This document shows, piece after piece, positions 1 through 27,519 of a stretch of 27,519 nt of DNA (the first letter of the stretch is position 1; every line of letters starts with the position of its first letter). A program made the translations under genes and the position numbers. The notes below the pieces were generated by a model. It was given only the letters and a program-made list of their open reading frames with translations. It made no database searches and had not been told where the DNA came from. The stretch comes from a virus. The stretch is taken from positions 36,056 through 63,574 of IMG/VR virus record IMGVR_UViG_3300030118_002802. The stretch is one strand, 5' to 3'.

Positions 1-552
1 AAAACAAAACCAACAGCAGAGGACAGAGTTATATCAGCTAAGAACGTACAATTTCATTGTTATGATATAGTTGATGAGGCTAAAACGTTTAAACAACGTA
101 TTAATTTTATTAAAAAAGCTGTACCTGAAAGTAACTGTATTAAACGCGTGTATACTATGCAAATTACTTCTCATGAAAATGCATTAGTATTTCATGAAAG
201 CTTTAAAGCTGGAGGTTACGAAGGCTCTATATTACGTACTAACGATGTGTATCAATGTAAAAGATCACATAGCCTTAGAAAGTTCAAAGACTTTCACGAT
301 TCCGAAGCTACTATTGTAGGTTTTGTAGAAGGTAAAGGTAAGCGTAAAGGTACGATTGGTAAGTTTATAGCTGAAGACGCCGATGGTAATATGTTTGGTA
401 TGCCTGTTATGGATAAGTTTAAATACTTACAAGATAATTTTAAAGTTATGCAAGGTTACATAGGTAAAACAGCAACCTTTACATACTTTGAAAGAACAAA
501 AGCAAATAGTTATAGACACCCATTATTTAAATGTATTAGAGATTATGAATGA
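1..552 (+). CDS. ATP-dependent DNA ligase, C-terminal part (5' end outside window)
   Basis: The frame is open from base 1, so this is the 3' part of a gene; about 183 residues are visible. It would seal nicks during phage replication and recombination. Seen: the ligase motif GGYEGSILR (nucleotidyltransferase motif IV region), then LRKFKDFHDSEATIVGF, which matches motif V with its two lysines. An OB-fold region follows, with a basic GKGKRKGTIGKF stretch and a C-terminal FERTKANSYRHPLF motif VI-like end. The catalytic KxDG lysine motif lies upstream of the window. The layout is that of short T7-type phage ligases (family knowledge). An ATG at 148 would drop the conserved region just before motif IV, so it is not the true start. 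The stop overlaps the next start (ATGAATGA). Confidence 0.9.
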   Translation, partial: KTKPTAEDRVISAKNVQFHCYDIVDEAKTFKQRINFIKKAVPESNCIKRVYTMQITSHENALVFHESFKAGGYEGSILRTNDVYQCKRSHSLRKFKDFHDSEATIVGFVEGKGKRKGTIGKFIAEDADGNMFGMPVMDKFKYLQDNFKVMQGYIGKTATFTYFERTKANSYRHPLFKCIRDYE

Positions 553-3846: not shown

Positions 3847-5556
3847 ATGATTCAAGAGATCAATGGATTTTTGATTGATAAGTACAATCAATATGAACTT
3901 AAAGATGGTGCAAAACAGGGTGTATGCCCTTTGTGCTCTCATACTAGGAAACCTAAAAATCAAAAACTACAATGTGCTAGTTATGATTGGGAACGTGGTC
4001 TCGGTACTTGTCACAATTGTGATACTACTTTTCAACTTCATACTTACCAACGCAAGGGTGCAAGCGAGAAGGTTTATGTTAGACCTACTAAGCCCACCGA
4101 CTTTAACGAGGTTAGTACGAAGGTTGAAAAATGGTTTAAGTCTCGTGGTATAAGCAAGCAAACTTTACAAGATCTACGTGTAGATGAAGGTAAAGAGTTT
4201 ATGCCACAGACTGGTAACCAAGAAAACACAATACAGTTTAATTATTATATGGGTGATCAACTCATAAATATTAAATATCGTGACGGTAGAAAAAACTTTA
4301 AGCTTTATAAAGGTGCTGAAAAAGTATTTTATAATATTAACAGTATTGTAGGTTATGACACTTGTGTTATTGTTGAAGGTGAAATGGATGTGTTAGCTTT
4401 ACATGAAGCTGGTGTTAAAAATGCTATTTCAGTTCCTAACGGAGCTACGTTAAATAGAAATAATTTAGATTATCTAGATAATTGTATTGATTACTTTGAC
4501 GATAAATCAAAAGTAATAATAGCAGTTGATGCAGATGAGCCTGGTCAAATGCTACAACGAGAGTTAGTTAGACGTCTTGGAGCAGAAGTATGTTACATTA
4601 TAGATTTTAATGGTAACAAAGACGCTAACGACTATTTATTAGAACATGGTGCTGAAGCTTTACGTGAAGCTGTTAATACAGCAAGGCCTGTACCATTAGA
4701 AAATGTATCAACCTTAAAAGACATAGAAGATGAACTTAAAGACTTTGTTAAAAATGGATTTAAACCCGGATTTCAAATCGGACTTAAAAACTTTGATTCT
4801 ATTTTCAGTACTTACACCGGTCAGTTTATTACTGTTACCGGCATACCTAGCTCTGGGAAGTCTGACTTTGTTGACCAGATGGTTGTGGGATACAACCAAC
4901 TATATGGTTGGAAGACTGCGTATGCAAGTCCTGAGAACCAACCAGTCTATCTCCACGCGCACAAGCTAATGCGTAAACACTGGCAAGACATGCCACGTGT
5001 AGGTGATATTGGAGGTAATAAATGGGAACAAGTATCTAATCATGTTAATGATAACTATTTCTTTATTGATATGGACAAGTATAGTTTAGAGTCTGTATTA
5101 CGTAAAGGTGCTGAACTTGTTAAACGTAAAGGTATTAAATGTTTAGTACTCGATCCGTTTAATAAGATTAGAGATGTAGATGCTAAGTCAGATGATGTAA
5201 ACCGTTATACAATGGATTACTTAGCTAAGATCGAAGCTTTTTGTAAAAAGTATGATGTGCTTACATTTATTGTAGCGCATCCAACTAAAATGTATAGAGG
5301 TCAAGATGGTAAAATTGAAGAACCTACTATGTATAATATAAAAGGCGGTGGTGAATGGTACGATGCTAGTTATCACGGTTTATTAGTACACAGAGATTAT
5401 GAAGCTAAAACAACTAAAGTTAAAGTACTTAAAGTTAAGTTTCAAAACCTCGGTGAAAACGGTGGTGAATCACATTTTACCTGGGAACCAAGGTCTGGTA
5501 GTTTTGTGCCTCATGAATCAGAGGTAAACGAAAACGATCCAATGCCTTGGGAATAA
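3847..5556 (+). CDS. Bifunctional DNA primase-helicase, T7 gp4-like (569 aa)
   Basis: Unwinds DNA at the fork and makes RNA primers. Domains in order: a zinc-binding primase domain with Cys27, Cys30, Cys55 and Cys58 (CPLC ... CHNC); a TOPRIM domain with VIVEGEMDVLALHEAG (Glu177) and VDADEPGQ (Asp228, Asp230), then KDANDYLL; and a RecA-like hexameric helicase domain with Walker A GIPSSGKS (Lys338) at about residues 332-339, Walker B-like CLVLDPFNKIRD, and TFIVAHPTKM. Length matches T7 gp4 (566 aa). The gene follows the SSB-like gene by three bases. Base composition and codon choice around the Walker A motif differ from the flanks (see findings). Confidence 0.95.
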   Translation: MIQEINGFLIDKYNQYELKDGAKQGVCPLCSHTRKPKNQKLQCASYDWERGLGTCHNCDTTFQLHTYQRKGASEKVYVRPTKPTDFNEVSTKVEKWFKSRGISKQTLQDLRVDEGKEFMPQTGNQENTIQFNYYMGDQLINIKYRDGRKNFKLYKGAEKVFYNINSIVGYDTCVIVEGEMDVLALHEAGVKNAISVPNGATLNRNNLDYLDNCIDYFDDKSKVIIAVDADEPGQMLQRELVRRLGAEVCYIIDFNGNKDANDYLLEHGAEALREAVNTARPVPLENVSTLKDIEDELKDFVKNGFKPGFQIGLKNFDSIFSTYTGQFITVTGIPSSGKSDFVDQMVVGYNQLYGWKTAYASPENQPVYLHAHKLMRKHWQDMPRVGDIGGNKWEQVSNHVNDNYFFIDMDKYSLESVLRKGAELVKRKGIKCLVLDPFNKIRDVDAKSDDVNRYTMDYLAKIEAFCKKYDVLTFIVAHPTKMYRGQDGKIEEPTMYNIKGGGEWYDASYHGLLVHRDYEAKTTKVKVLKVKFQNLGENGGESHFTWEPRSGSFVPHESEVNENDPMPWE

Positions 5557-5589: not shown

Positions 5590-5868
5590 ATGGGTTTCAA
5601 CAGATGGAAAAGAGCTCCTAGCAAACCAGTACCAACAAGGTCTTGGTCGCCTGAAGAAATGAAGGTTATAGGCTTTGTTATGAATAAAGGTATATCTATA
5701 AGTATTAGTCCAGACTGGAAAGATGAATTTAGTAGATGGCAAATAGATATTAAAATAGGCAAAACAATTCATGTTGATCCAAAAAGATATACAGATGAAA
5801 ATGTATATGATAAAGTCGTTGAGTATTATAATTACTACTATGACAAATACAATAAAAATAATAAATAA
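5590..5868 (+). CDS. Hypothetical protein (92 aa)
   Basis: Not recognised. The sequence starts MGFNRWKRAPSKPVPTRSWS, has SISISPDWKDEFSRWQIDIK, a run that could form a small beta sheet, and ends in a Tyr/Lys/Asn-rich tail. No signal peptide or membrane segment is visible. It opens the gene group that leads to the dCMP hydroxymethylase and overlaps the next small gene by 29 bases. It is small, soluble and of unknown role. Confidence 0.6.
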   Translation: MGFNRWKRAPSKPVPTRSWSPEEMKVIGFVMNKGISISISPDWKDEFSRWQIDIKIGKTIHVDPKRYTDENVYDKVVEYYNYYYDKYNKNNK

Positions 5869-5977
5869 CAATAAAATTAAATTAACTATTAACAACAAAC
5901 CAATGATACTAAACAAAGTTGATACAACAGGTGGACGTAAAAAATGGTTTGTATATAACGGATATATTTATGCATAA
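5840..5977 (+). CDS. Small hypothetical protein (45 aa)
   Basis: The ATG at 5840 starts a 45-codon frame that overlaps both neighbours; its stop overlaps the hydroxymethylase start (ATGCATAA). The product is basic and reads like two short beta strands (KIKLTINNKPMILNKVD, KKWFVYNGYIYA). A longer reading from 5771 would run deep into the preceding gene and is not preferred. I see no known motif. It could be a coupling leader for the downstream gene. Confidence 0.45.
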   Translation: MTNTIKIINNNKIKLTINNKPMILNKVDTTGGRKKWFVYNGYIYA

Positions 5978-6608
5978 ATTTAGAAACGCAAACACAGCTT
6001 ATGAATATTTACATGATCGTATAATACAAGATGGTGTTGACTTTGCAGATACTAAAGCTTTGTTTAATGTCGGTGTGTATATTACAGATTCACAAGATAA
6101 CAAAATAATAAACAGAGAACGTAACTGGAAACAAGATTACGCTGAAGCTGAATGGCAATGGTATTTATCTGGTGATCGCAATATAGCTAAGCTTGGTGAT
6201 TTGTACGGTAAAGTTCCGGCTATATGGAAACGTATGGCTGATACAGATGGTAATGTTAACTCTAACTATGGTTGGCAATGGCAACGTAACGGTCAAATAG
6301 ACTGGGTAGTTAACTTACTAAAGACACAACCAAACACAAGGCAAGCGGCTATATCAATATATGACTGTAAAGAACATGATAAGTATTATAACGATACACC
6401 TTGTACTTATGCTATTCAGTTTACAATATTACACGGTAGACTTGATATGTGTGTAACAATGCGTAGCAACGATTTGTGGTATGGTTTTTGTAATGACCAG
6501 TATTGTTTTTCTAAACTACAAGGGTTAATTGCTTTTAAACTAAATATTGAACCAGGTGTATATTATCATTTCGCACATAATATGCATCTATATAATGATA
6601 AGATATGA
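5970..6608 (+). CDS. dCMP hydroxymethylase, T4 gp42-like (thymidylate synthase superfamily, 212 aa)
   Basis: Predicted to convert dCMP plus methylene-tetrahydrofolate to 5-hydroxymethyl-dCMP for modified phage DNA. Seen: AEWQWYLSGDRN (Glu61 matches the thymidylate synthase active-site Glu), PAIWKRMAD, NVNSNYGWQW (T4 gp42 has NSNYGW at the same place), TPCTYAIQF with catalytic Cys145, MRSNDLWYGFCNDQY, and MHLY (His206, Tyr208). In thymidylate synthases the last-but-one motif is RSxDxxxGxPFN, with Asn reading dUMP. Here, as in T4 gp42 (MRSND...GF.ND), that Asn is Asp (Asp176), the known determinant of dCMP preference. The second Arg of the phosphate-binding pair is Gln125. The protein is shorter than gp42 (about 246 aa) at the C-terminus. 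The start overlaps the upstream stop. A dCMP methylase is the alternative. Confidence 0.86.
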   Translation: MHKFRNANTAYEYLHDRIIQDGVDFADTKALFNVGVYITDSQDNKIINRERNWKQDYAEAEWQWYLSGDRNIAKLGDLYGKVPAIWKRMADTDGNVNSNYGWQWQRNGQIDWVVNLLKTQPNTRQAAISIYDCKEHDKYYNDTPCTYAIQFTILHGRLDMCVTMRSNDLWYGFCNDQYCFSKLQGLIAFKLNIEPGVYYHFAHNMHLYNDKI

Positions 6609-7402
6609 CGTATTGTATTTACCATATACCGGGTGTAAAAATAGGTGTAACAAACAACGTGTATGACCGTGTTGAAAAGCAACAAGGCTATAGAGACAAT
6701 GAGTATGAAATACTTGAAATGTCAGATGATATAGACTATGTATCTCGTAAAGAAAGAGAACTGCAAATAAAATATGGTTATCCAGTTGATGAAAAACTAT
6801 ATAGTAAATTAAAATGTAATCAAATGAAAATTAATGTAACAGAAATGACTACGACATTCCCTTGTCCAGTCAATAAACTTAAAGGCAGGCTTATGGATAA
6901 CATAGGTATGTCATGGGATACTCCTTTCGGTGAAGTTAAATTAACTAAAAAATCTATTGATTGGATAATACAAAATGTAAAAGACTCTCAGTATACAGAA
7001 ACAAGATGTTATGTATACAACAGAGCTTTTGCTAGATGGTTCGATAACAACGATGCTTATGAAACTAGAACTGGTGGCATCATGATGGACTATAATAAAA
7101 AATGTGAAACAATGTGTAGGTTTGATAAGATAAGACTATGGGCTGAAGACAGAGGCTTATATCACAAAGGCGATCTTAAAACACAAACACTAAAACTAAT
7201 GGAAGAAGCTGGTGAAATATGTAGAGCTGTGCTTAAAAAAGATCAAGATCAAGTTATTGATGGTATTGGTGATTGTGTTGTTGTGCTAACTAATTTAGCT
7301 CATCTTGCAAGTACTAGTATTGAAAATTGTATTGATGCTGCTTACGATGAGATAAAAGATAGAACAGGTAAAATGAGTAATGGAACATTTAAAAAAGATT
7401 AA
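6605..7402 (+). CDS. GIY-YIG-like domain fused to MazG-type NTP pyrophosphohydrolase (265 aa)
   Basis: Two domains. The N-terminal part (residues 1-60) reads MTYCIYHIPGVKIGVTNNVY, with CIY and KIG in place of GIY and YIG, Arg22, and a downstream Glu in SRKERELQIKYGY, as in compact GIY-YIG nucleases. The middle (about 80-165) is not recognised. The C-terminal part (about 172-265) is an all-alpha NTP pyrophosphatase: FDKIRLWAEDRG, KLMEEAGEI (Glu200, Glu201, Glu204) and DGIGDCVVVLTN (Asp223), the usual Mg-binding ExxE...D set. It starts in an ATGA overlap with the hydroxymethylase. In T4 the hydroxymethylase works with gp56, a dCTPase of the same fold superfamily, so dCTP breakdown to dCMP is a plausible role here (inference). 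Confidence 0.75.
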   Translation: MTYCIYHIPGVKIGVTNNVYDRVEKQQGYRDNEYEILEMSDDIDYVSRKERELQIKYGYPVDEKLYSKLKCNQMKINVTEMTTTFPCPVNKLKGRLMDNIGMSWDTPFGEVKLTKKSIDWIIQNVKDSQYTETRCYVYNRAFARWFDNNDAYETRTGGIMMDYNKKCETMCRFDKIRLWAEDRGLYHKGDLKTQTLKLMEEAGEICRAVLKKDQDQVIDGIGDCVVVLTNLAHLASTSIENCIDAAYDEIKDRTGKMSNGTFKKD

Positions 7403-7404
7403 TT

Positions 7405-7713
7405 ATGTCAGATAGAGAAATTATGGACGCTAAAAACGGTATCGTAGCTAGAAAGTCTTATGGCTTTAGAGATACAGTAGTTAAAAACGTTGTTGATAAG
7501 TTTGTTAAAAGATCAGATGTTGGTTATGAAAAGTACGGACAAACATTACACGACGAAAGAACTTCTGGTATTAAAAACCTAGTTGATTATTTAAATGATA
7601 TACAAGAAGAGCTTATGGATGCGATACTGTATATTCAAACAGCTAGAGAAGAGCTTAGAGATTTATCAGAAGAAGCTATGATAGATAAGTTCAGAGATGA
7701 AGAGGAAATATAA
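7405..7713 (+). CDS. MazG-like / all-alpha NTP pyrophosphatase family protein (102 aa)
   Basis: Probably a small nucleotide pyrophosphohydrolase or a diverged relative. Seen: VDKFVKRSDVGYEKYGQTL followed by YLNDIQEELMDAILYI with Glu-Glu and Asp in helical register, typical of MazG-like phage proteins. It then has a charged helical tail. The last 17 bases overlap the endonuclease gene. Having two such domains side by side, right after a dCMP hydroxymethylase, suggests control of a specific dNTP pool. The substrate cannot be told from sequence. Confidence 0.65.
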   Translation: MSDREIMDAKNGIVARKSYGFRDTVVKNVVDKFVKRSDVGYEKYGQTLHDERTSGIKNLVDYLNDIQEELMDAILYIQTAREELRDLSEEAMIDKFRDEEEI

Positions 7714-8146
7714 ACGTAAACGAGGTCCTGTCGTTTCAAAAAAAGTCACATACGATGGGATTAAGTTTGCATCCGGTTTAGAACGTTACATGTACCAAGT
7801 ATTAAAGAAAGCTAAAATACACGCCGATTATGAAGGCTGTACGTTTACTTTACAAGAAGGCTTTATGTTAAATAATGAAAGCTACGAAAGACAAAGTAAT
7901 GGTAAAGGTGAAATGGTTAATAGAGGTTGTAAAAAAATATTACCAATTAAATATACACCAGACTTTGTAGGTAGTTCATTTATAATTGAATGTAAAGGTA
8001 GAGCTAACGAAAGCTTCCCAATGAGATGGAAAATGTTTAAAAAATATGTTAATCACAAGATGTCTCATGTAACTTTATATAAACCTCAAAATCAAAAAGA
8101 GTGTGACAAAGTAATAGAATTAATAACTAAAAAAAATAAAAGATGA
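7697..8146 (+). CDS. T7 endonuclease I-like Holliday junction resolvase (149 aa)
   Basis: Predicted structure-specific PD-(D/E)XK nuclease that resolves branched replication and recombination intermediates and may degrade host DNA. Seen: a basic N-terminus (MKRKYKRKRG), FASGLERYMYQVLKKAKI with Glu29 (T7 gp3 has FRSGLE), then IKYTPDFVG with Asp89 and FIIECKGR with Glu98 and Lys100. These match the four catalytic residues of T7 endonuclease I, and length is the same (149 aa). A 40-residue insert between the SGLE and PDF motifs is longer than in T7. DUF1064-type phage nucleases have a similar motif set and are the alternative. The stop overlaps the next start (ATGA). Confidence 0.8.
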   Translation: MKRKYKRKRGPVVSKKVTYDGIKFASGLERYMYQVLKKAKIHADYEGCTFTLQEGFMLNNESYERQSNGKGEMVNRGCKKILPIKYTPDFVGSSFIIECKGRANESFPMRWKMFKKYVNHKMSHVTLYKPQNQKECDKVIELITKKNKR

Positions 8147-8286
8147 AAGTAAAAAATTGGGAAATAAGTCTTGGTTTTTACCCTGGTATTTTAACAGGGT
8201 TTAGATCTTATCAAGAACAAAATAAAACAAATCATGTATTGTACATACCTTTTATTGATGTGTGCGTAACACTACACAAACAATGA
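8143..8286 (+). CDS. Small hypothetical protein upstream of the reductase (47 aa)
   Basis: The ATG at 8143 overlaps the endonuclease stop, and its own stop overlaps the reductase ATG at 8283, so it is bracketed by two ATGA couplings and is very likely translated. The product starts MKVKNWEISLGFYPGILTGF and ends with HVLYIPFIDVCVTLHK, an aromatic, beta-rich small protein. From memory, similar WEISLGFYPG proteins sit next to nucleotide-metabolism genes in other marine phages, but I cannot name a function. Confidence 0.72.
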   Translation: MKVKNWEISLGFYPGILTGFRSYQEQNKTNHVLYIPFIDVCVTLHKQ

Positions 8287-10154
8287 TAGAGCTTAACAAT
8301 AAAATACTCTCGGATATAACTGTGCACATGAAGTATGCTAAGTATATCCCTGAGTTAAAACGTAGAGAAACTTGGGAAGAGTTAGTTGATCGTAATAAAG
8401 CTATGCACATACGTAAATACCCAAGTCTAAAAGAACAAATAGAAACTAATTATAAATATGTTTATGAAAAGAAAGTCTTACCGTCAATGCGATCGTTGCA
8501 ATTCGGTGGCAAGCCTATTGAAATTAGTCCTAATAGACTTTATAATTGTGCCTACTTGCCTATTGATCATATTGATGCTTTTAGTGAAGTTATGTTTTTA
8601 CTGTTATCAGGTTGTGGTGTAGGTTATTCAGTACAATTACATAGCATTAAAAAGTTACCAGAAATAATAAAACCACACGCTGTAAGAAAACGTAGGTTTG
8701 TTATAGGTGATAGTATTGAAGGTTGGTCTGATGCTATTAAAGTATTAATGAAGTCTTATATGGGTAACAAACGTTCTTCTAAAATAAAGTTTGATTACTC
8801 AGATATAAGACCTAAAGGTGCTAGACTAGTTACATCAGGTGGTAAAGCACCAGGTCCTCAACCTCTGAAAGAGTGTATTGTAAAAATTAAAGGTATATTA
8901 GATGCAAAACAAGACGGTGAAAAACTTACTAGTGTTGAAGTACATGACATTGTGTGTCATATCGCTGACGCTGTGCTTGCTGGCGGTATTCGTAGAGCTG
9001 CTCTTATTAGTTTATTTTCGGCTTACGACGAAGAAATGATTGCTTGTAAGTCAGGTAATTGGTGGGAAACAAACCCACAAAGAGGTAGAGCTAATAACTC
9101 TGCCGTGCTTATGAGACATAAAATAACTAAAGAGTTTTTCCTAGACTTATGGAAACGTATAGAGCTGTCTGGTAGTGGTGAACCTGGTATATACTTTAAT
9201 AACGATAAAGAGTGGGGTACTAATCCGTGTTGTGAAATAGCATTAAGACCTTTTCAGTTTTGTAACTTATGCGAAGTAAACGTATCAAATGTAGTTGATC
9301 AAGATGATTTTAATTCAAGAGTTAAAGCTGCTGCATTTATAGGTACATTACAAGCTGGTTATACAGAGTTTCATTATTTAAGAGAGATATGGCAAGAGAC
9401 AACAGAACGAGACGCGCTTATAGGTGTGTCAATGACAGGAATAGGGAGTGCCGCTGTGCTCCAGCTGGATATGAAGGAAGCTGCAAATATAGTAAAAGCG
9501 GAAAACAGAAGAGTAGCAAATCAAATAGGGATAAACCAAGCAGCACGTACAACATGCGTTAAACCTGCAGGGACGACATCTCTTGTACTTGGAACATCTT
9601 CTGGTATACATGCATGGCATAATAAATATTATATCCGTAGAATGCGTGTAGGTAAAAATGAAGCTATATATAATTATTTAAAAGCTAATCACCCAGAACT
9701 TATACAAGACGAATATTTTAGACCACACGATACTGCTGTTATTGAAATACCACAATCAGCACCTAAAGGTTCTATAATTAGAACTGAGTCTGCATTTGAT
9801 TTATTAGAGCGTGTTAAACGTGTAGCTACAGATTGGGTTGTTACAGGTCATAAAACTGGTAGTAATACACATAATGTATCTGCTACAATAAGTTTAAAAG
9901 AAAAAGACTGGGAACCTGCTGGTGAATGGATGTGGAAAAACAGAGATAAGTATAATGGTTTATCTGTATTACCTTATGACGGTGGTACATACACTCAAGC
10001 TCCTTTTGAAGATATAAACAAAGCTAAGTATGATGAAATGACTAAGCTACTTCAAGATATAGACTTAACTAAAGTTGTTGAAGAGTTTGATAACACAGAT
10101 CTATCCGGCGAATTGGCTTGTGCCGGTGGTTCTTGCGAAGTAACAAGCCTATAA
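8283..10154 (+). CDS. nrdJ: Class II (adenosylcobalamin-dependent) ribonucleotide reductase (623 aa)
   Basis: Reduces ribonucleotides to deoxyribonucleotides with a B12 cofactor; no separate small subunit is needed. Seen: VLPSMRSLQFGG, then YNCAYLPIDHIDAF with Cys89, LLLSGCGVGYSVQ, the active-site NPCCEIALRPFQFCNLCEVN, ARTTCVKPAGTTSLVLGTSS followed by GIHAWH, and the C-terminal CAGGSC with Cys613 and Cys618 as the redox-shuttle pair. It matches the monomeric NrdJ/RTPR type and is shorter than the roughly 740 aa Lactobacillus enzyme. The ATG at 8283 overlaps the preceding stop; a longer start at 8262 lies inside that gene. A block near 9420-9610 has unlike codon use (see findings). Confidence 0.93.
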   Translation: MIELNNKILSDITVHMKYAKYIPELKRRETWEELVDRNKAMHIRKYPSLKEQIETNYKYVYEKKVLPSMRSLQFGGKPIEISPNRLYNCAYLPIDHIDAFSEVMFLLLSGCGVGYSVQLHSIKKLPEIIKPHAVRKRRFVIGDSIEGWSDAIKVLMKSYMGNKRSSKIKFDYSDIRPKGARLVTSGGKAPGPQPLKECIVKIKGILDAKQDGEKLTSVEVHDIVCHIADAVLAGGIRRAALISLFSAYDEEMIACKSGNWWETNPQRGRANNSAVLMRHKITKEFFLDLWKRIELSGSGEPGIYFNNDKEWGTNPCCEIALRPFQFCNLCEVNVSNVVDQDDFNSRVKAAAFIGTLQAGYTEFHYLREIWQETTERDALIGVSMTGIGSAAVLQLDMKEAANIVKAENRRVANQIGINQAARTTCVKPAGTTSLVLGTSSGIHAWHNKYYIRRMRVGKNEAIYNYLKANHPELIQDEYFRPHDTAVIEIPQSAPKGSIIRTESAFDLLERVKRVATDWVVTGHKTGSNTHNVSATISLKEKDWEPAGEWMWKNRDKYNGLSVLPYDGGTYTQAPFEDINKAKYDEMTKLLQDIDLTKVVEEFDNTDLSGELACAGGSCEVTSL

Positions 10155-14452: not shown

Positions 14453-15888
14453 TATTGATTACCTATTATAGCTACTTTTAAACCAGCGCCAGGTGTTGAT
14501 AAAACATTATTAATTGTAATTTTTATTTCAGCGTCATTTGAACAACCTGTAGTGTCTTCATTAAGGGTTGCTTGTGAAGCAGCTTCCTCAGATGTTGTTT
14601 CTTCAGTTTCTATATGAAGTTTTATGTCTCCACTAAATATGCTACTACCGTTGTTTGTTATTTCAATATTAGTTTTTCCTCCAGCTTCATCACCAGAAGC
14701 AGCCGTTGTTAAGCTAGCCTTTACCGCTGTTATAGTAAAAGCGTAAGGCATTCTAAATGTAACTTTAGTACCAGTAGTTAAATTACTAGTTTCATCAGAG
14801 CAGGCTATAACAAAGCTTTCTGTAGTAGAGCTAGATGCCGCAACTAAATCTATAGTACCATCAGAGTCTTGATATGTAGCTGTCACGTTAGTCTCTGTGT
14901 TGCCAGTAAACATAGCTCCAACTATATCTTGAACTTGCTCGTTGCTTAATTGCGTGTTAGTATCAGTAGAAACAAGATCTATTGTACCGTCCTCATCTTG
15001 ATATGTTGCCGTGATATTTGTTTCCGTATTACCTGTAAACATAGCGCCTACAATGTCTTGAACCTGCTCATTAGTTAACTGTGTATTAGTAGAAACAAGA
15101 TCTATTGTGCCGTCTTCGTCTTGGTATGTTGCTGTAATATTTGTTTCTGTATTATCTGTAAACATAGCACCCACAATGTCCTGAACCTGTTCATTGGTTA
15201 GCTGTGTGTCTGTATTTGTTGTGTAGTTTGGAGTACCAAAAGTACCGTCGTGCTTTAAAAACTGACCATTTTCACCCGCAGCTGGTAATAAATTACCATT
15301 ACCAGTTCCTAGTAAAGTTCTAATTTCGCTTGCTGTTTGGTCTGCTGTAGCACCAGCTTCTATTCCGTTTAGCTTAGTATGATCAGCATTTGTAAAAACG
15401 TTAGAATCATCAGCTTCTTCTACTGCTGTTTTAACTTGATCGTTAGTTAATTGTGTGTTTGTATCTGTGTCAACCCAAGGTACATTTACTACTAATTTAT
15501 CTTGGTGATCACCACTTGATATTCTTTGTATTACATAATATCTACCAGAAGTTGTTGTAGGTGTTTGTGTTGCTGTTTCTGCAATACTGCTAAATATTTT
15601 TACCCCGCCTAATGCGGTTGGTCTTGCTCCTAATATATTTAGAGTTGCAGAGTAATCACCACCAGTAGTGTTTAACTCGTTGTCTACACTTATACCAGTA
15701 CCTCCCGTTAAGTCTACACCTGTAATATCTCCAGACGATGTAGTTATAGTTGATTTAACTATTTTGTTGTTTGAATCTAAACCTAAATTACCACCACTAA
15801 CAATAGTTCCTGTGTTAATGTTTTCTAAGTAAACATCACTACGAAATCTTGCTATTAAGTTCCATATATGTTGACCTACCCATTTCAC
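14452..15888 (-). CDS. Tail fibre protein with tandem repeats (478 aa)
   Basis: N-terminus MKWVGQHIWNLIARFRSDVY leads into Gly/Thr-rich sequence (SGGNLGLDSNNKIVKS) typical of fibre shafts. The middle has HTKLNGIEAGATADQTASEI, a common phage fibre motif, and then three copies of a roughly 42-residue unit (QLTNEQVQDIVGAMFTxNTE, TNITATYQDEDGTIDLVS) at residues about 226-350. The C-terminal 120 residues form a beta-rich domain (TGTKVTFRMPYAFTITAVKA, NIEITNNGSSIFSG) ending LKVAIIGNQ. Expected to form a trimeric fibre for host contact (inference). The start overlaps the stop of the T9SS cargo gene. Confidence 0.82.
   Translation of the reverse strand: MKWVGQHIWNLIARFRSDVYLENINTGTIVSGGNLGLDSNNKIVKSTITTSSGDITGVDLTGGTGISVDNELNTTGGDYSATLNILGARPTALGGVKIFSSIAETATQTPTTTSGRYYVIQRISSGDHQDKLVVNVPWVDTDTNTQLTNDQVKTAVEEADDSNVFTNADHTKLNGIEAGATADQTASEIRTLLGTGNGNLLPAAGENGQFLKHDGTFGTPNYTTNTDTQLTNEQVQDIVGAMFTDNTETNITATYQDEDGTIDLVSTNTQLTNEQVQDIVGAMFTGNTETNITATYQDEDGTIDLVSTDTNTQLSNEQVQDIVGAMFTGNTETNVTATYQDSDGTIDLVAASSSTTESFVIACSDETSNLTTGTKVTFRMPYAFTITAVKASLTTAASGDEAGGKTNIEITNNGSSIFSGDIKLHIETEETTSEEAASQATLNEDTTGCSNDAEIKITINNVLSTPGAGLKVAIIGNQ
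14840..15212 (-). repeat. Three tandem ~125-bp repeats within the tail fibre gene
   Basis: Each unit encodes QLxNEQVQDIVGAMFTxNTETNxTATYQDxDGTIDLV. The first two units are nearly identical in protein, and the third has QLS, NVT and DSD changes. Many differences between units are at synonymous third positions, so the copies are not a recent DNA duplication. They may allow changes in fibre length by recombination. Confidence 0.85.
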
Positions 15889-18044
15889 TGTTTTATTATT
15901 CTATTAATATATGTTTTTTCGTTATCAATTATATGTATTAGATATATTCCAGGAATCAAATAGGATACATCTAAGACATTTATATTTTGTTTTGATATAA
16001 TCATATCCCCTAGATAATTAAATACGTTTATATCAACATTTTTATTTATGTTAATATTGTTAATAACTGGGTTTGGAAATATTTTTATACCACTTCTATA
16101 CTCTATAATATTAGTAGGACCAGTCCAACCATCTTGACAATAGTTATAAAGATCAATACAAGTATTATCCCACTCTACATCACAGCAGTAATCATCAATA
16201 TCTATAACCCACTCAAAACAATCATTAGGAATATAGTATATATCACCAACGTTACAACCAGCAGAGTAATAGCAAGAGCTGTCGGGTGTGTTAACCATCG
16301 AATTATAATTAACAGCGGTCGGATCATTACAACCAACAATAGGATAAATACAACTACCATTATCAGCATTTGCAAGCACGTTATAATTGAGTGCAGTAGA
16401 GTCTGTACAACCGTATGTATATGGAATACAACTTCCGTCATCTGTGTTTGCGTTAGAGTTATAGTTAAACATTGTTGGATCAGTGCAACCATAAACAAAA
16501 GGTATACAGCTACCATCATCAACGTTAGCGTTAGCGTTATAATTAAAAGCTAAAGGTTGCATACAACCTAATATAACAGGTATACAACCACCGTTATCTA
16601 TATTAGCTAAACTATCATAGTTAAAAGCTGTAGTATCAGTACAACCAAACATAGCTAAAGTTTGACAACTGTCTTGTACCATTACATCAGAAATATAATT
16701 GTTAGCAGTGTCAACATGATATTCTAAATACGCTGGCGAAGTACAACCAGGGTAATAATAACACGTTTCATTTACGTTTGCTAGGCTATCGTAGTTCCAA
16801 GCTGTTGAATCTAAACAACCATAAACCTTTTCAATACACTCATCACCACAATACGTTTGAGCTGTGTAAACAAAAAACGGCTGTATAAAAGGAGGTTGTA
16901 TACTTATAACAGTATCGCCAAAAGGATTTGTTAAAGTAAAACCACATTCCAAAGCTGTCATACTAGCCTGTTGGTTTATAAAAAATTTAAACTTAACTTG
17001 CTCAGGTGCGTTTAAAACTATAGATGTAGTTTGATTAAAGCCAGATAACAACACGTGTTCTGTTGTGTCATCTTGATAAACCTCTAATCTACTACCTACC
17101 CAACCGTTACCAGCTAAATCATGAAGTGTTAAGTTAAAAGAACAACTATCAACATAATCCATGTAGTTAGCTGTTGAGTCGTAATTAAAAGCTGTTGAGT
17201 CTATACAGCCAATAATTTTTAAAGTAATACAACTACTATCGCTTACAGTAGCTATAGGATTATATTCTAAATAATTATCATCTGTACAACCATAAATAGG
17301 AGGCGGTGGTGTACATGTATCTGAGATAATAACGTGACTACTATCATTACCAAAGTTAGCGTCTGTACCGTAAACTAAAGTATCACCGCACTGAATAACA
17401 TAATAAGAACCATCTTGTCCACCCCATAAACTACCAGCCATACCGTCACCGTATTGATCTTCTATTACAAAAACAAACTCTCCAATAGGTAAACATATTA
17501 TATGGCTTTGTGGTTGATAGTCTGGCGCGTTTGTATAAGGCCCGTTAAAAAACATAGTATTACCCAACGTGTCTTCTATACGCCAAGAGGTTTCGTCTGG
17601 GTATTGATCGGTATTTATTTGTATTAATGTAGGTACACAAGGACCAGGTGGTGGTGGATTAGGTAAGCATTGGGGCACCGGCCTATTATGTATCAAACCC
17701 GTTGTAAAAGTACTTACAGGGTAATCAACTATAGTATCTCCACACACTGTAACATAATACTCACCATTAATTATACCATCACCATAACTATCATATATAA
17801 CAAAAGAAATATTAATTGATGTATCTCCAATATATATAGTATCATAATTCATAACATTAGGTGTTGAATAATGACCATATTGAACTTCAGCTATAACAGG
17901 TCCTTGATAAGCAGAATCATATAATATCCATCTATTTTCAGAAGGATAACTATCTGTTTTTAAATGTATAATAACTTCTATTGAATCTGTAGGTGATCCA
18001 AGTGTTAATATAGGTAATAAAAGTATAAATAAAAATTTTTTCAT
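15885..18044 (-). CDS. Secreted Cys-repeat protein with T9SS C-terminal sorting domain (719 aa)
   Basis: Predicted export by Sec and then by the host type IX secretion system to the cell surface or medium. Seen: signal peptide MKKFLFILLLPILTLGS; two related beta domains with IYDSYGDGIINGEYYVTVCG and IEDQYGDGMAGSLW (about residues 20-230); a third with LTLHDLAGNGWVGSRLEVYQ; about nine repeats of the form GCxDxxAxNYxxxANxDxGSC; a CFEWVIDIDDYCCDVEWDNT motif common in secreted flavobacterial proteins; and a final 72 residues with FPNP, INVFNYLGD and YLIPGIYLIHI, ending in RIIKQ, as in Por-type (TIGR04183) sorting domains. It lies between the tail fibre and a thioredoxin-like gene, coupled by ATGA. 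A host-derived moron or a virion adhesin are both possible. Confidence 0.85.
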   Translation of the reverse strand: MKKFLFILLLPILTLGSPTDSIEVIIHLKTDSYPSENRWILYDSAYQGPVIAEVQYGHYSTPNVMNYDTIYIGDTSINISFVIYDSYGDGIINGEYYVTVCGDTIVDYPVSTFTTGLIHNRPVPQCLPNPPPPGPCVPTLIQINTDQYPDETSWRIEDTLGNTMFFNGPYTNAPDYQPQSHIICLPIGEFVFVIEDQYGDGMAGSLWGGQDGSYYVIQCGDTLVYGTDANFGNDSSHVIISDTCTPPPPIYGCTDDNYLEYNPIATVSDSSCITLKIIGCIDSTAFNYDSTANYMDYVDSCSFNLTLHDLAGNGWVGSRLEVYQDDTTEHVLLSGFNQTTSIVLNAPEQVKFKFFINQQASMTALECGFTLTNPFGDTVISIQPPFIQPFFVYTAQTYCGDECIEKVYGCLDSTAWNYDSLANVNETCYYYPGCTSPAYLEYHVDTANNYISDVMVQDSCQTLAMFGCTDTTAFNYDSLANIDNGGCIPVILGCMQPLAFNYNANANVDDGSCIPFVYGCTDPTMFNYNSNANTDDGSCIPYTYGCTDSTALNYNVLANADNGSCIYPIVGCNDPTAVNYNSMVNTPDSSCYYSAGCNVGDIYYIPNDCFEWVIDIDDYCCDVEWDNTCIDLYNYCQDGWTGPTNIIEYRSGIKIFPNPVINNININKNVDINVFNYLGDMIISKQNINVLDVSYLIPGIYLIHIIDNEKTYINRIIKQ
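16260..17300 (-). repeat. Region of about nine ~24-residue Cys/Asp repeats in the T9SS cargo gene
   Basis: The consensus is (Y/L/I)GCxDxxAxNYxxxANxDxGSC(I/Y). Two copies precede and seven follow the third beta domain. Each has two Cys and several Asp/Asn, consistent with disulphide and possibly Ca binding (inference). They are divergent at DNA level. Confidence 0.8.
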
Positions 18045-26200: not shown

Positions 26201-27519
26201 TTTACTCTAGCATTAAAAGAAGATTCAGCTGTTGTGTTTTTAAACTTAATATCACCGTCATCTACTAACTGGTCTACAGCTGAACCAAGAGTTTCTCTTG
26301 CTACAGGATCAGCTTTTAAAGTATTAAAGAAAGCAGCATGAACAAACTCATGAGAAGCAGTATTAAGCATACCGTTTTCTAAAGCTGTTTCTTTATTTAT
26401 TATTATATCTAAACCAACAACTTTACCGTCATTAGTTAATCTAGGAGCAAAAGCACCATAGTTTCTAGCGTTACCTTCTGCAATATTTAATACAGTAGAG
26501 GCGTCAGCTTCTGCATTATCTATTTGATCTATAGCTTGTCTAGCTTCATTTCTTTCTTCTTGCGTAGAGTTTTTATCTTTTAAAATTTGTTGATAACCTT
26601 CTTTTAAACCATCTAGCTGCATAGAAAAATCAACAACATTATCATAGTCTCTACCAGTATAACCTTCTGTTATTTTATTTTTTAAATCATTAGTGTTTGT
26701 TTCTTCAACGTTAATTTCAACAACACCTCTATCGTTTATTTTATCTTGATAAAGTTTTATAGCATCTACATTTTGCTTGTAGATCTTATCTATATCTTCT
26801 TGTTTTACACCATCTAGTATTTTGTTTTTACGTTTATTTAATTCATCTACCTTGCTTTGAAGATCTTGTGTTTTATTAAGTTTTTCTTCAGCTGATAGTT
26901 TTGTATCACTAGATATATCTTTAGACTGATTAATATAAGACTGTTTTTCTTTATCTATATCTATAAGTTCTTTTTTTTCTGAGTCATTTAAAGCGTCAAC
27001 TCTTTTTATATCGTTGTTTAGCATTTGCTGAGACATGTCTGTTAACTTAACATATTCGTCTTCAAGCTTTGCTATAGTCTCTGTATCAGCTGTTTTTATT
27101 TCTTCTTGTATTTCTAACAAACGCCTACCTATTTCAGATCTATTTTGATAAGTACTAGATGATTGAAAAGGACTATATAGCTTGCTAAATAATCTAGGTG
27201 TTTGTATAGCGCTGCTTATAATACCACCACTAGCAAAAGCTTCTAGACCACCATCATATATATTAACGTCATTTTTTCCAGATATAAATATATCAGCACC
27301 GTTACTAGTAAAAGTAGCAAAAACCTCAGAACCACCTTCTCCAATAAATTCTCTACCAAAAGATCTTGTGTTTTTAAAAGTAAAAACTTCATCTTTTAAA
27401 TACTTACCGTAACTTGTTTTTATTTGTTTTTTAAACTTTGGTTTTCTTAAAAAGCCTTTTGTTTTATTTACAGCTCCTAAAGTTATTCTTTCACTTAAAA
27501 CTTCACCAATACCAGTTAA
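20221..27519 (-). CDS. Giant multidomain polyvalent protein, probably virion-internal (at least 2432 aa, N-terminus outside window)
   Basis: The frame stays open to the right edge, so the start lies beyond 27519. In protein order: REFIGEGGSEVFATFTS and hydrophobic GGLEAFASGGIISSAI (27210-27350); coiled coils (26700-27120); zincin motif HEFVHA (26338-26352); a sigma-like segment with NKSLFGWLTG and SLDKPVGDAGTLSDVL (about 25430-25600); a HAD phosphatase with FDFDETL (23077-23097), ILTARP (about 22842-22860), GEAKAMW and YFVDDALPN (about 22668-22694); a helical region like LPD38 with ATMFFNARSAVLQTLSTVNF and LAFQNTPMQYNRLIKRAMQD (about 20900-21750); a Lys/Glu coiled coil; and two C-terminal Cys/His knuckles. 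Such fusions are known as phage large polyvalent proteins, thought to be ejected with the DNA (inference). Confidence 0.85.
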   Translation of the reverse strand, partial: LTGIGEVLSERITLGAVNKTKGFLRKPKFKKQIKTSYGKYLKDEVFTFKNTRSFGREFIGEGGSEVFATFTSNGADIFISGKNDVNIYDGGLEAFASGGIISSAIQTPRLFSKLYSPFQSSSTYQNRSEIGRRLLEIQEEIKTADTETIAKLEDEYVKLTDMSQQMLNNDIKRVDALNDSEKKELIDIDKEKQSYINQSKDISSDTKLSAEEKLNKTQDLQSKVDELNKRKNKILDGVKQEDIDKIYKQNVDAIKLYQDKINDRGVVEINVEETNTNDLKNKITEGYTGRDYDNVVDFSMQLDGLKEGYQQILKDKNSTQEERNEARQAIDQIDNAEADASTVLNIAEGNARNYGAFAPRLTNDGKVVGLDIIINKETALENGMLNTASHEFVHAAFFNTLKADPVARETLGSAVDQLVDDGDIKFKNTTAESSFNARVKVYDNAVRPEEKMTIITEMVRDGNATIKENGLQKIASMFRRFSQNYLGREIKLDSKKDILNFIKDFDVSVKNNKPNKAIIKMLEKGAKGKMFKDARTPEQVKSETQFSRAVDANVKSNPDLKQTFDNFVQNEDGTPKHVSQAEFALTPDFTNAYFAIVEGRSLDALIQQGMTELGLPPEALREFTRKVKEEVGRRFLQNYSLDKNKSLFGWLTGVSGGAGRSIIYRAKGDVMNEYKRENRVEETSLDKPVGDAGTLSDVLIGERDSALEALENMDLSPGRKQAARELINEVKVKEALGLDADTRQSLRDTIVNANLDITDLTYKDFKQLVAGVDKITRKDKSGNIIVNKKTGEPKLFNPTKTADASPSGALYNVLETLSAEFGIDPLRVLANQDLDAKQRKSAQEKILALSTNADGTFNDILFQLLPEGETRSGQATGIADTKLGDLYITGERLKVSEGASKKLGQKRSQTKIDSVERDNFLGLFGITPDGTFETGTANDGAIRQLVTSLSQLAANQETRLNSITNGTATEAIRAKLADGKSQMAFSKNSEAQNVINAAFPEVVMQMSNDISTESIDKAIDNVVGNLLTNSQKTRLRNKIQSEVDGYLESKQILGETVTPTEAMLENFQRENFVDSLDDVFKNRDADGKKITVANTVNSIEGANKARRNLTISTSKIVETKGIKKGAELIIGHLSSAFSSMGKIGDGRFIPREDGGDVVENPNYVKGKGLKRIKDGKTTYSKQNRYQVTTGKSDFLSLVNQGLPNGYSIISPKTGQYVLTNPDGSQTPLETTLPKENTEAFLKDIETKGAEQTYKDRLAASMEAREVVEIMFDNAYDRLDNGNLDKTDIALLTNMLGSDMQAPIRRSANAEFIADNVMDIVKNRGKLSINQVTQYEHMKSKVQVSTEIVQSYDNNRRLDKKIWDGYQVQVISYEHNKLIDDAGLQTLPTMDGTSRSFNLRTMLQYLKNPGKYDINSIAPIRSINPKNTDVIGENWIETTKALEKGNQSGQQMLGNIINSGYMFSKPAPKSRGMSAFDFDETLIIDGDNFIIATDPTTGKETRISSADWPIKGPELMAKGFDFNFDDFINVRGGVEGPLFQKLKNRIAKFGPQNNYILTARPQESAVAIHGWLKSKGINLPLENITGLGNSTGEAKAMWMAGKYAEGYNDMYFVDDALPNVEAVKDMMDQLDIKGSSVQARFNFSKEFDSSQFDNIVEDGMNDMKEDLDLDIILEETKGVAREKKFSKAKAIRRGKGKGRFKFFLPPSAEDFKGLIYSLLGKGKKGERHHKFFKDKLFDPYAKAMRALHMLKQSVSYDMRALKKANKDIAKKLNKDIPGLEFTLDQAVRVYNYTRNGFDIPGMSQTDINELVKHVESNPDVKAFADGVEAINQKAGGLVAPDDAWLAENISIATNSAADNTRDNLLSEFNNNVDTIFSEENMNKLQAVYGPNYVEALKDVIYRMKSGSNRPEGMSRLMNGFMDWINGSVGATMFFNARSAVLQTLSTVNFINWSDNNPLKVAKTLANPKQFATDFISLFNSDFLKQRRSGLQQDLNAKEMAEAIRNSKNPVRAVIGYILQKGFLPTQMADSFAIAMGGASFYRNRVNSYLEQGLNQKEAETKAFEDFQEIAEETQQSARPDKISQQQASPLGKLILAFQNTPMQYNRLIKRAMQDLVNGRGDAKTHISKILYYGAIQNAIFYGLQQALFAVAFGDDEEEEKDNDDKYFNIGNGMIDSLLRGSGFAGAAVSTLKNMVLEFMEQEESKYQPDHAYTLIEMLNLSPPVGIKARKLYSATQSWEFNERVIKQMSLTQFDNPIYEAAFSATEAITNVPLSRLYSKIRNIREAMNSDNKTWERIALMLGWSTWNFGIKPQAVIDAKQEVKEIQKEERKKKNEIKKQERKEKEEAENKVKIEENKKLQEEEKKEGKKVQCAAISRSGKRCRNEALPGKSFCTIHDEVEQGDKEVQCSHIKKDGKRCKMKTKNKSGLCYYHD

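Follow-up and report, generated by a model that had tools for sequence, protein, structure and literature searches.

Sequence comparison and structure modelling indicated that this phage encodes an enzyme that, as its counterpart in phage T4 does, very probably hydroxymethylates the cytosine nucleotide from which DNA is built. We consider it highly likely that the protein is a folate-dependent dCMP 5-hydroxymethylase, and that 5-hydroxymethylcytosine (5hmC) replaces much or all of the cytosine in the phage DNA and blocks type II restriction at C-containing sites. The stretch of DNA analysed (referred to as the window; 27,519 nucleotides) comprises bases 36056–63574 of a 63,574-bp virus record (63.6 kb), and the whole record holds one gene of the thymidylate synthase (TS) family.

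This gene lies within a dense early operon on the plus strand (Table 1), and its coordinates, its length of 212 aa and the positions of its motifs all agreed with the initial annotation. More specifically, MRSNDLWYGFCND corresponds to residues 164–176 and NSNYGW to residues 97–102, and RSNDLWYGFCND and NSNYGW were both found where they had been placed. An alternative in-frame TTG start is possible at 5919, while the relatives start at about the ATG at 5970. The protein matched PF00303 (E=1.3e-24), in line with a TS fold, and the PHROG thymidylate synthase family (2.9e-40), and its top PDB match was the T4 dCMP hydroxymethylase (1b49, 1e-15). It ends four residues past the H-x-Y motif, with no long TS-type tail, and in IMG/VR it was matched by 536 stretches.

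Table 1. Features of the window referred to in the text (window coordinates).
Feature	Position	Strand	Remarks
ATP-dependent DNA ligase, C-terminal part (DNA_ligase_OB_2)	148..552	+	
Primase-helicase (TOPRIM + DnaB-like)	3847..5556	+	upstream in 68/81 loci
Conserved 92-aa protein, no function assigned	5590..5868	+	just upstream of the hydroxymethylase gene in 67/81 loci
Predicted dCMP 5-hydroxymethylase (T4 gp42-like)	5970..6608	+	Glu61, Ile85, Trp86, Ser98, Tyr100, Arg124, Asp142, Cys145, Thr146, Arg165, Ser166, Asp176, His206, Tyr208
MazG pyrophosphohydrolase domain protein (C-terminal MazG; GIY-YIG-looking N-terminus by eye only)	6605..7402	+	EEAGE...DGIGD intact; candidate dCTP pyrophosphatase
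Small MazG-like protein (ExxMDAxxY)	7405..7713	+	71/81 loci
DUF1064 endonuclease / Holliday junction resolvase-like	7697..8146	+	
Class II (B12-dependent) ribonucleotide reductase	8262..10154	+	class I NrdB/NrdA here in about 30 relatives
719-aa protein with T9SS type A sorting domain	15885..18044	-	

The residues of the active site were compared in a MAFFT alignment of the window protein, its relatives, T4 gp42, E. coli ThyA, SPO1 gp29, ViI and other phage enzymes, and invariance was counted over the window protein and 80 IMG/VR relatives (81 sequences). Asp176 aligned with T4 Asp179 and E. coli Asn177, in agreement with the motif offset, and this position was Asp in all 81 sequences and thus not so by chance. 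Equally invariant were the catalytic Cys145 (T4 Cys148) and Glu61 (T4 Glu60), together with Asp142 at Cys–3 (T4 Asp145), Ser98 and Tyr100 (T4 Ser94 and Tyr96). According to the ternary complex of the T4 enzyme (PMC6400193), Asp at Cys–3 (Leu in ThyA) with Ser94 and Tyr96 forms the hydroxymethylation signature, and Asp145 is needed for hydroxymethylation instead of methylation. Thr146 at Cys+1, also without exception among the 81, is in the same state as in T4, and positions 177 and 147 (Cys+1) are those that best separate C-modified from unmodified phage contigs in the MetaGPA study (PMC8670742). Finally, Ser166 and Arg124 (T4 Ser169 and Arg123), likewise invariant, correspond to the deoxy- over ribo-substrate state, since work on MilA (PMC5175136) has deoxyribose selected by Ser/Arg rather than Ala/Lys. 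Counting against the assignment, T4 Arg124 is replaced by Gln or His in the window protein and its relatives.

The initial annotation had taken the Asn-to-Asp switch as the basis of dCMP preference. Asp at 177 is by itself not decisive, because the td protein of Escherichia phage UPEC01 (Straboviridae) carries it in an otherwise ThyA-like context, with Leu and His at Cys–3 and Cys+1; Asp176 as sole proof was consequently dropped. T4 td (1tis) has Asn at this position. The UPEC01 td gene (L102, 633–1493) adjoins a DHFR gene, and its product might be a methylating enzyme that uses dCMP.

An AlphaFold2 model of the window protein, built with 22 sequences (pLDDT 90.4, pTM 0.89), retrieved in Foldseek the CMP hydroxymethylase MilA (5jnh; 1.4e-17, TMq 0.86) and the T4 dCMP hydroxymethylase (6l18, 6a9a) as top matches, with thymidylate synthases close behind. 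In a maximum-likelihood tree, the window protein, its IMG/VR relatives and gp32 of Bacteroides phage BF486P2 formed one clade (98/85), with ThyA and the dUMP hydroxymethylases as groups apart from it; T4 gp42 sat on a long branch, and the tree gives no resolution of the deep order. The wider residue set, the fold and the tree all support the dCMP hydroxymethylase assignment proposed from the motifs, and neither a misaligned Asp176 nor a position among dUMP-specific enzymes was found.

Since the window protein has the TS fold and is labelled thymidylate synthase by PHROGs and NCBIfam, it might be an ordinary thymidylate synthase or a dUMP hydroxymethylase, yielding dTMP or hmdUMP. However, its D/T/D state at Cys–3, Cys+1 and 179 differs from both the L/H/N of ThyA and the D/N/(A or I) of dUMP hydroxymethylases such as SPO1 gp29 and ViI, its NCBIfam scores fall far under the cut-offs, and its clade is separate; on residues and tree both activities were set aside as scarcely credible. 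A dCMP 5-methyltransferase (XP12-like), making 5-methyl-dCMP and DNA with 5mC, seems very improbable, if slightly less so. With Asp at 177 as its only change, E. coli ThyA does turn to dCMP as substrate and 5-methyl-dCMP as product (cited in PMC8670742), and many restriction enzymes would be blocked by 5mC too, but the Asp at Cys–3 with Ser and Tyr two apart is invariant here, whereas methylating thymidylate synthases have Leu at Cys–3 (PMC6400193). A flavin-dependent TS-like dCMP monooxygenase of the 9iqc kind, making 5-hydroxy-dCMP, appears just as implausible as an ordinary thymidylate synthase. Although 9iqc and 9iqu were found by both sequence and fold (rank 34, TMt 0.77), 9iqc ranks under the T4 enzyme and MilA, and the window protein has the Glu of folate chemistry (Glu60) besides the hydroxymethylation signature; this comparison covered sequence and fold matches and the residues of the window protein. 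The literature search found no paper on 9iqc, nor on BF486P2.

The gene neighbourhood was compared over 81 loci, and showed a kept order of primase-helicase, small ORF, hydroxymethylase, MazG-domain protein, small MazG-like protein, DUF1064 endonuclease and ribonucleotide reductase. The gene of the MazG-domain protein overlaps the hydroxymethylase stop codon and is the next gene in 79 of the 81 loci; within the set compared, this fused type is specific to the clade of carriers. Because of this adjacency, and because pyrophosphohydrolase domains co-occur with TS in the modified MetaGPA contigs (PMC8670742), a dCTP-lowering role for the MazG-domain protein is plausible by analogy. We nevertheless gave less weight to the MazG neighbours as a sign that dCTP is removed, given that the small MazG is also present in relatives without the hydroxymethylase. 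The DNA_ligase_OB_2 domain is associated with C-modified contigs as well (PMC8670742). At the ribonucleotide reductase locus, the enzyme switches between class II and class I within the clade.

The Bacteroidetes-type host named in the initial annotation is well supported by three kinds of sequence kinship. The terminase is 64% identical to that of MW202828, about 46% to those of the Flavobacterium elemo phages and 36–39% to those of Cellulophaga phages, the primase-helicase is nearest to that of Cellulophaga phi10:1, and a T9SS type A sorting domain (PF18962, 2.7e-7; TIGR04183, above cut-off) forms the C-terminus of the 719-aa protein. The host might export this phage protein through the T9SS. 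A similar C-terminus was seen in G003, while the homologues in G008, G012 and G014 differ at the C-terminus. Because the first 98 bases of the record (G000:1–98) recur exactly at window positions 27421–27518, one base before its end, the record, although classed as linear, probably represents the whole of a circularly closed genome of about 63.5 kb.

Modification of cytosine throughout a genome should weaken the selection against restriction sites. We therefore compared observed counts of the 12 C-containing 4-bp palindromes with their maximal-order Markov expectation in 26 carriers (the record itself and 25 related viruses with the same gene) and in 16 terminase-related phages without the enzyme; the 14 IMG/VR contigs that supplied the metagenomic controls gave no PF00303 match. 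None of the 26 carriers avoided any of these palindromes (O/E 0.86–1.00 overall), whereas 15 of the 16 relatives strongly avoided one to six of them, with GATC absent against 87–178 expected in most of the 15. AT-only palindromes were avoided by neither group. The groups differed (Fisher 1.6e-10, Mann-Whitney 2.6e-6), but both values overstate the evidence: on the terminase tree the carriers form one clade, corresponding to a single change (SH-aLRT 97), and carriers and controls have different early modules throughout, so that the contrast is not independent replication. In the enzyme-free relatives L209–L228, L086, L123 and L205, GATC is often fully missing over tens of kb, as are CATG, CTAG, GGCC or CGCG, implying that these Bacteroidetes phages face restriction that is both strong and varied.

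Outside this clade, nattely and AB434P2 carry such enzymes and avoid no palindrome, yet ATCCB, T4 and BF486P2 carry them too and avoid GATC and/or CTAG only; GGCC, CCGG, GCGC and CGCG are avoided by none of these five. From the comparison of carriers with controls, the escape from host restriction proposed in the initial annotation gained indirect support, limited to one transition.

Two further readings concern the consequences of the enzyme rather than its chemistry. The lack of palindrome avoidance could be independent of base modification, reflecting restriction-poor hosts or an early module that holds some other anti-restriction gene. The single transition and the wholly different early module would fit this explanation, but we regard it as rather unlikely, as controls of GC similar to the carriers still show strong avoidance, and phi10:1, with a related primase and no such enzyme, avoids GGCC, CGCG and GATC. 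Somewhat more weight, though still short of an even chance, goes to the idea that hmC is further decorated (with a sugar, a carbamoyl or another group) by an enzyme too divergent to recognise. The initial annotation had placed any hypermodification enzyme outside the window, but a search of the whole record recognised none. GT2 glycosyltransferases (PF00535) were found in 0 of 37 records, carbamoyltransferase models gave nothing above cut-off in the same 37, a relative of the ATCCB glucosyltransferase was seen in 0 of 30 (a query without positive control), and no large unassigned enzyme was common to the six genomes compared. On the other side, the homologues of ATCCB and nattely adjoin beta-glucosyltransferases, many ORFs of the record are without any family match, and a CMP-Kdo-like cassette that includes apparent glycosyltransferase genes is present in four relatives. 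This cassette (L073, 11170–16561; L075, 13618–18427; L080, 15156–19965; L084, 11768–17138) follows a class I ribonucleotide reductase and encodes a JmjC/cupin protein, a cupin, a KdsB-like cytidylyltransferase, a KdsA-like synthase and two proteins that look like glycosyltransferases but match no Pfam family, making it a candidate for virion, surface or hmC glycosylation.

Other T4-type parts went undetected as well. DNA polymerases A, B and C (PF00476, PF00136, PF07733) were not found above cut-off in the record and 29–36 relatives, and the T4-type dNMP kinase (PF21448) was found in 0 of 37 records. Either host enzymes serve as kinase and polymerase, or the phage versions go unrecognised; we lean, at moderate odds, towards the kinase and replicase of the host serving and hmC remaining undecorated. 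Most likely, hmC replaces cytosine, possibly unglycosylated, and blocks restriction. While the fold, the invariant residue signature, the tree, the gene order and the lack of site avoidance are observations, we infer a pathway, from the activity and the degree of replacement to the role of MazG, the use of host kinase and polymerase and the lack of a further sugar, in which Cys145 would attack C6 of dCMP, Asp176 would read and protonate N3 of the cytosine, and methylene-THF would deliver the carbon. Water activated by Asp142, in place of hydride, would then complete hydroxymethyl-dCMP. A kinase of the host would probably phosphorylate this product and a host polymerase would build it into DNA, while the MazG-type pyrophosphatase of the next gene probably lowers dCTP. 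The resulting DNA would carry 5hmC for much or all of its cytosine, and type II restriction would be blocked at C-containing sites.

HmC DNA is established for T-even phages. What stands out here is that a compact, predicted dCMP hydroxymethylase is fixed across a broad clade of environmental phages that has flavobacterial kin, that further parts of the T4 type seem to be missing, and that the palindromes give a signal. We only tentatively suggest that a large and uncultivated Bacteroidetes podovirus-like lineage makes unglycosylated hmC DNA through host kinase and replicase, without a phage DNA polymerase, dNMP kinase or hmC transferase, and that gain of the module ended site avoidance clade-wide. 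If true, this clade would let one ask how cytosine can be replaced by a phage that has no polymerase or kinase of its own and no glucose shield. Relaxed restriction pressure would moreover be a genome-scale trace, checkable in any sequenced phage, and the palindrome test could help to tell, without data other than the sequence, which phage genomes are modified.

The initial annotation knew of no described case in flavobacterial phages with this replication module. A literature search, with most subscription journals outside its reach, indeed found no paper on hmC in these phages, but the homologue is not unprecedented, as copies with 43% identity and an annotation as dCMP hydroxymethyltransferase occur in Bacteroides phages, besides the many IMG/VR matches. 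The closest is BF486P2 gp32 (WAX06796.1, annotated deoxycytidylate 5-hydroxymethyltransferase), a sister branch with 43% identity over 98% and all signature residues. BF486P2 differs in belonging to another phage lineage, in encoding a dUTPase nearby as well as another, divergent copy (gp27), and in avoiding GATC and CTAG. Gp27 (L002, 17156–17917) is a very divergent TS-like protein with Leu for the catalytic Glu60, whose closest PDB entry is still the T4 dCMP hydroxymethylase.

T4 gp42 (PDB 1b5d, 6a9b) shares with the window protein the fold, the catalytic and specificity residues and the absence of a long TS C-terminal tail, but identity in the fold match is about 22% and T4 Arg124 is Gln in the window protein. 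T4 furthermore encodes a polymerase, the gp56 dCTPase and, beside gp42, a beta-glucosyltransferase, whereas no DNA polymerase A, B or C and no GT2 glycosyltransferase was recognisable in the window record. The TS-like proteins of Lactobacillus phage ATCCB and Enterococcus phage nattely have the Asp179/Asp145/Thr149 signature at 35–37% identity, but are followed by a beta-glucosyltransferase gene, have a longer C-terminus and come from phages of Firmicutes hosts. The C-modified metagenomic contigs of MetaGPA (PMC8670742) likewise combine a TS with Asp177, co-occurring pyrophosphohydrolases and DNA ligase domains; they differ in that selection experiments point to modified DNA in them and in that many encode a carbamoyltransferase, which was not found in the window clade. 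MilA (PDB 5jnh), the top fold match, also hydroxymethylates a cytosine nucleotide, but prefers CMP via Ala176 and Lys133, whereas Ser166 and Arg124 of the window protein correspond to the dCMP state.
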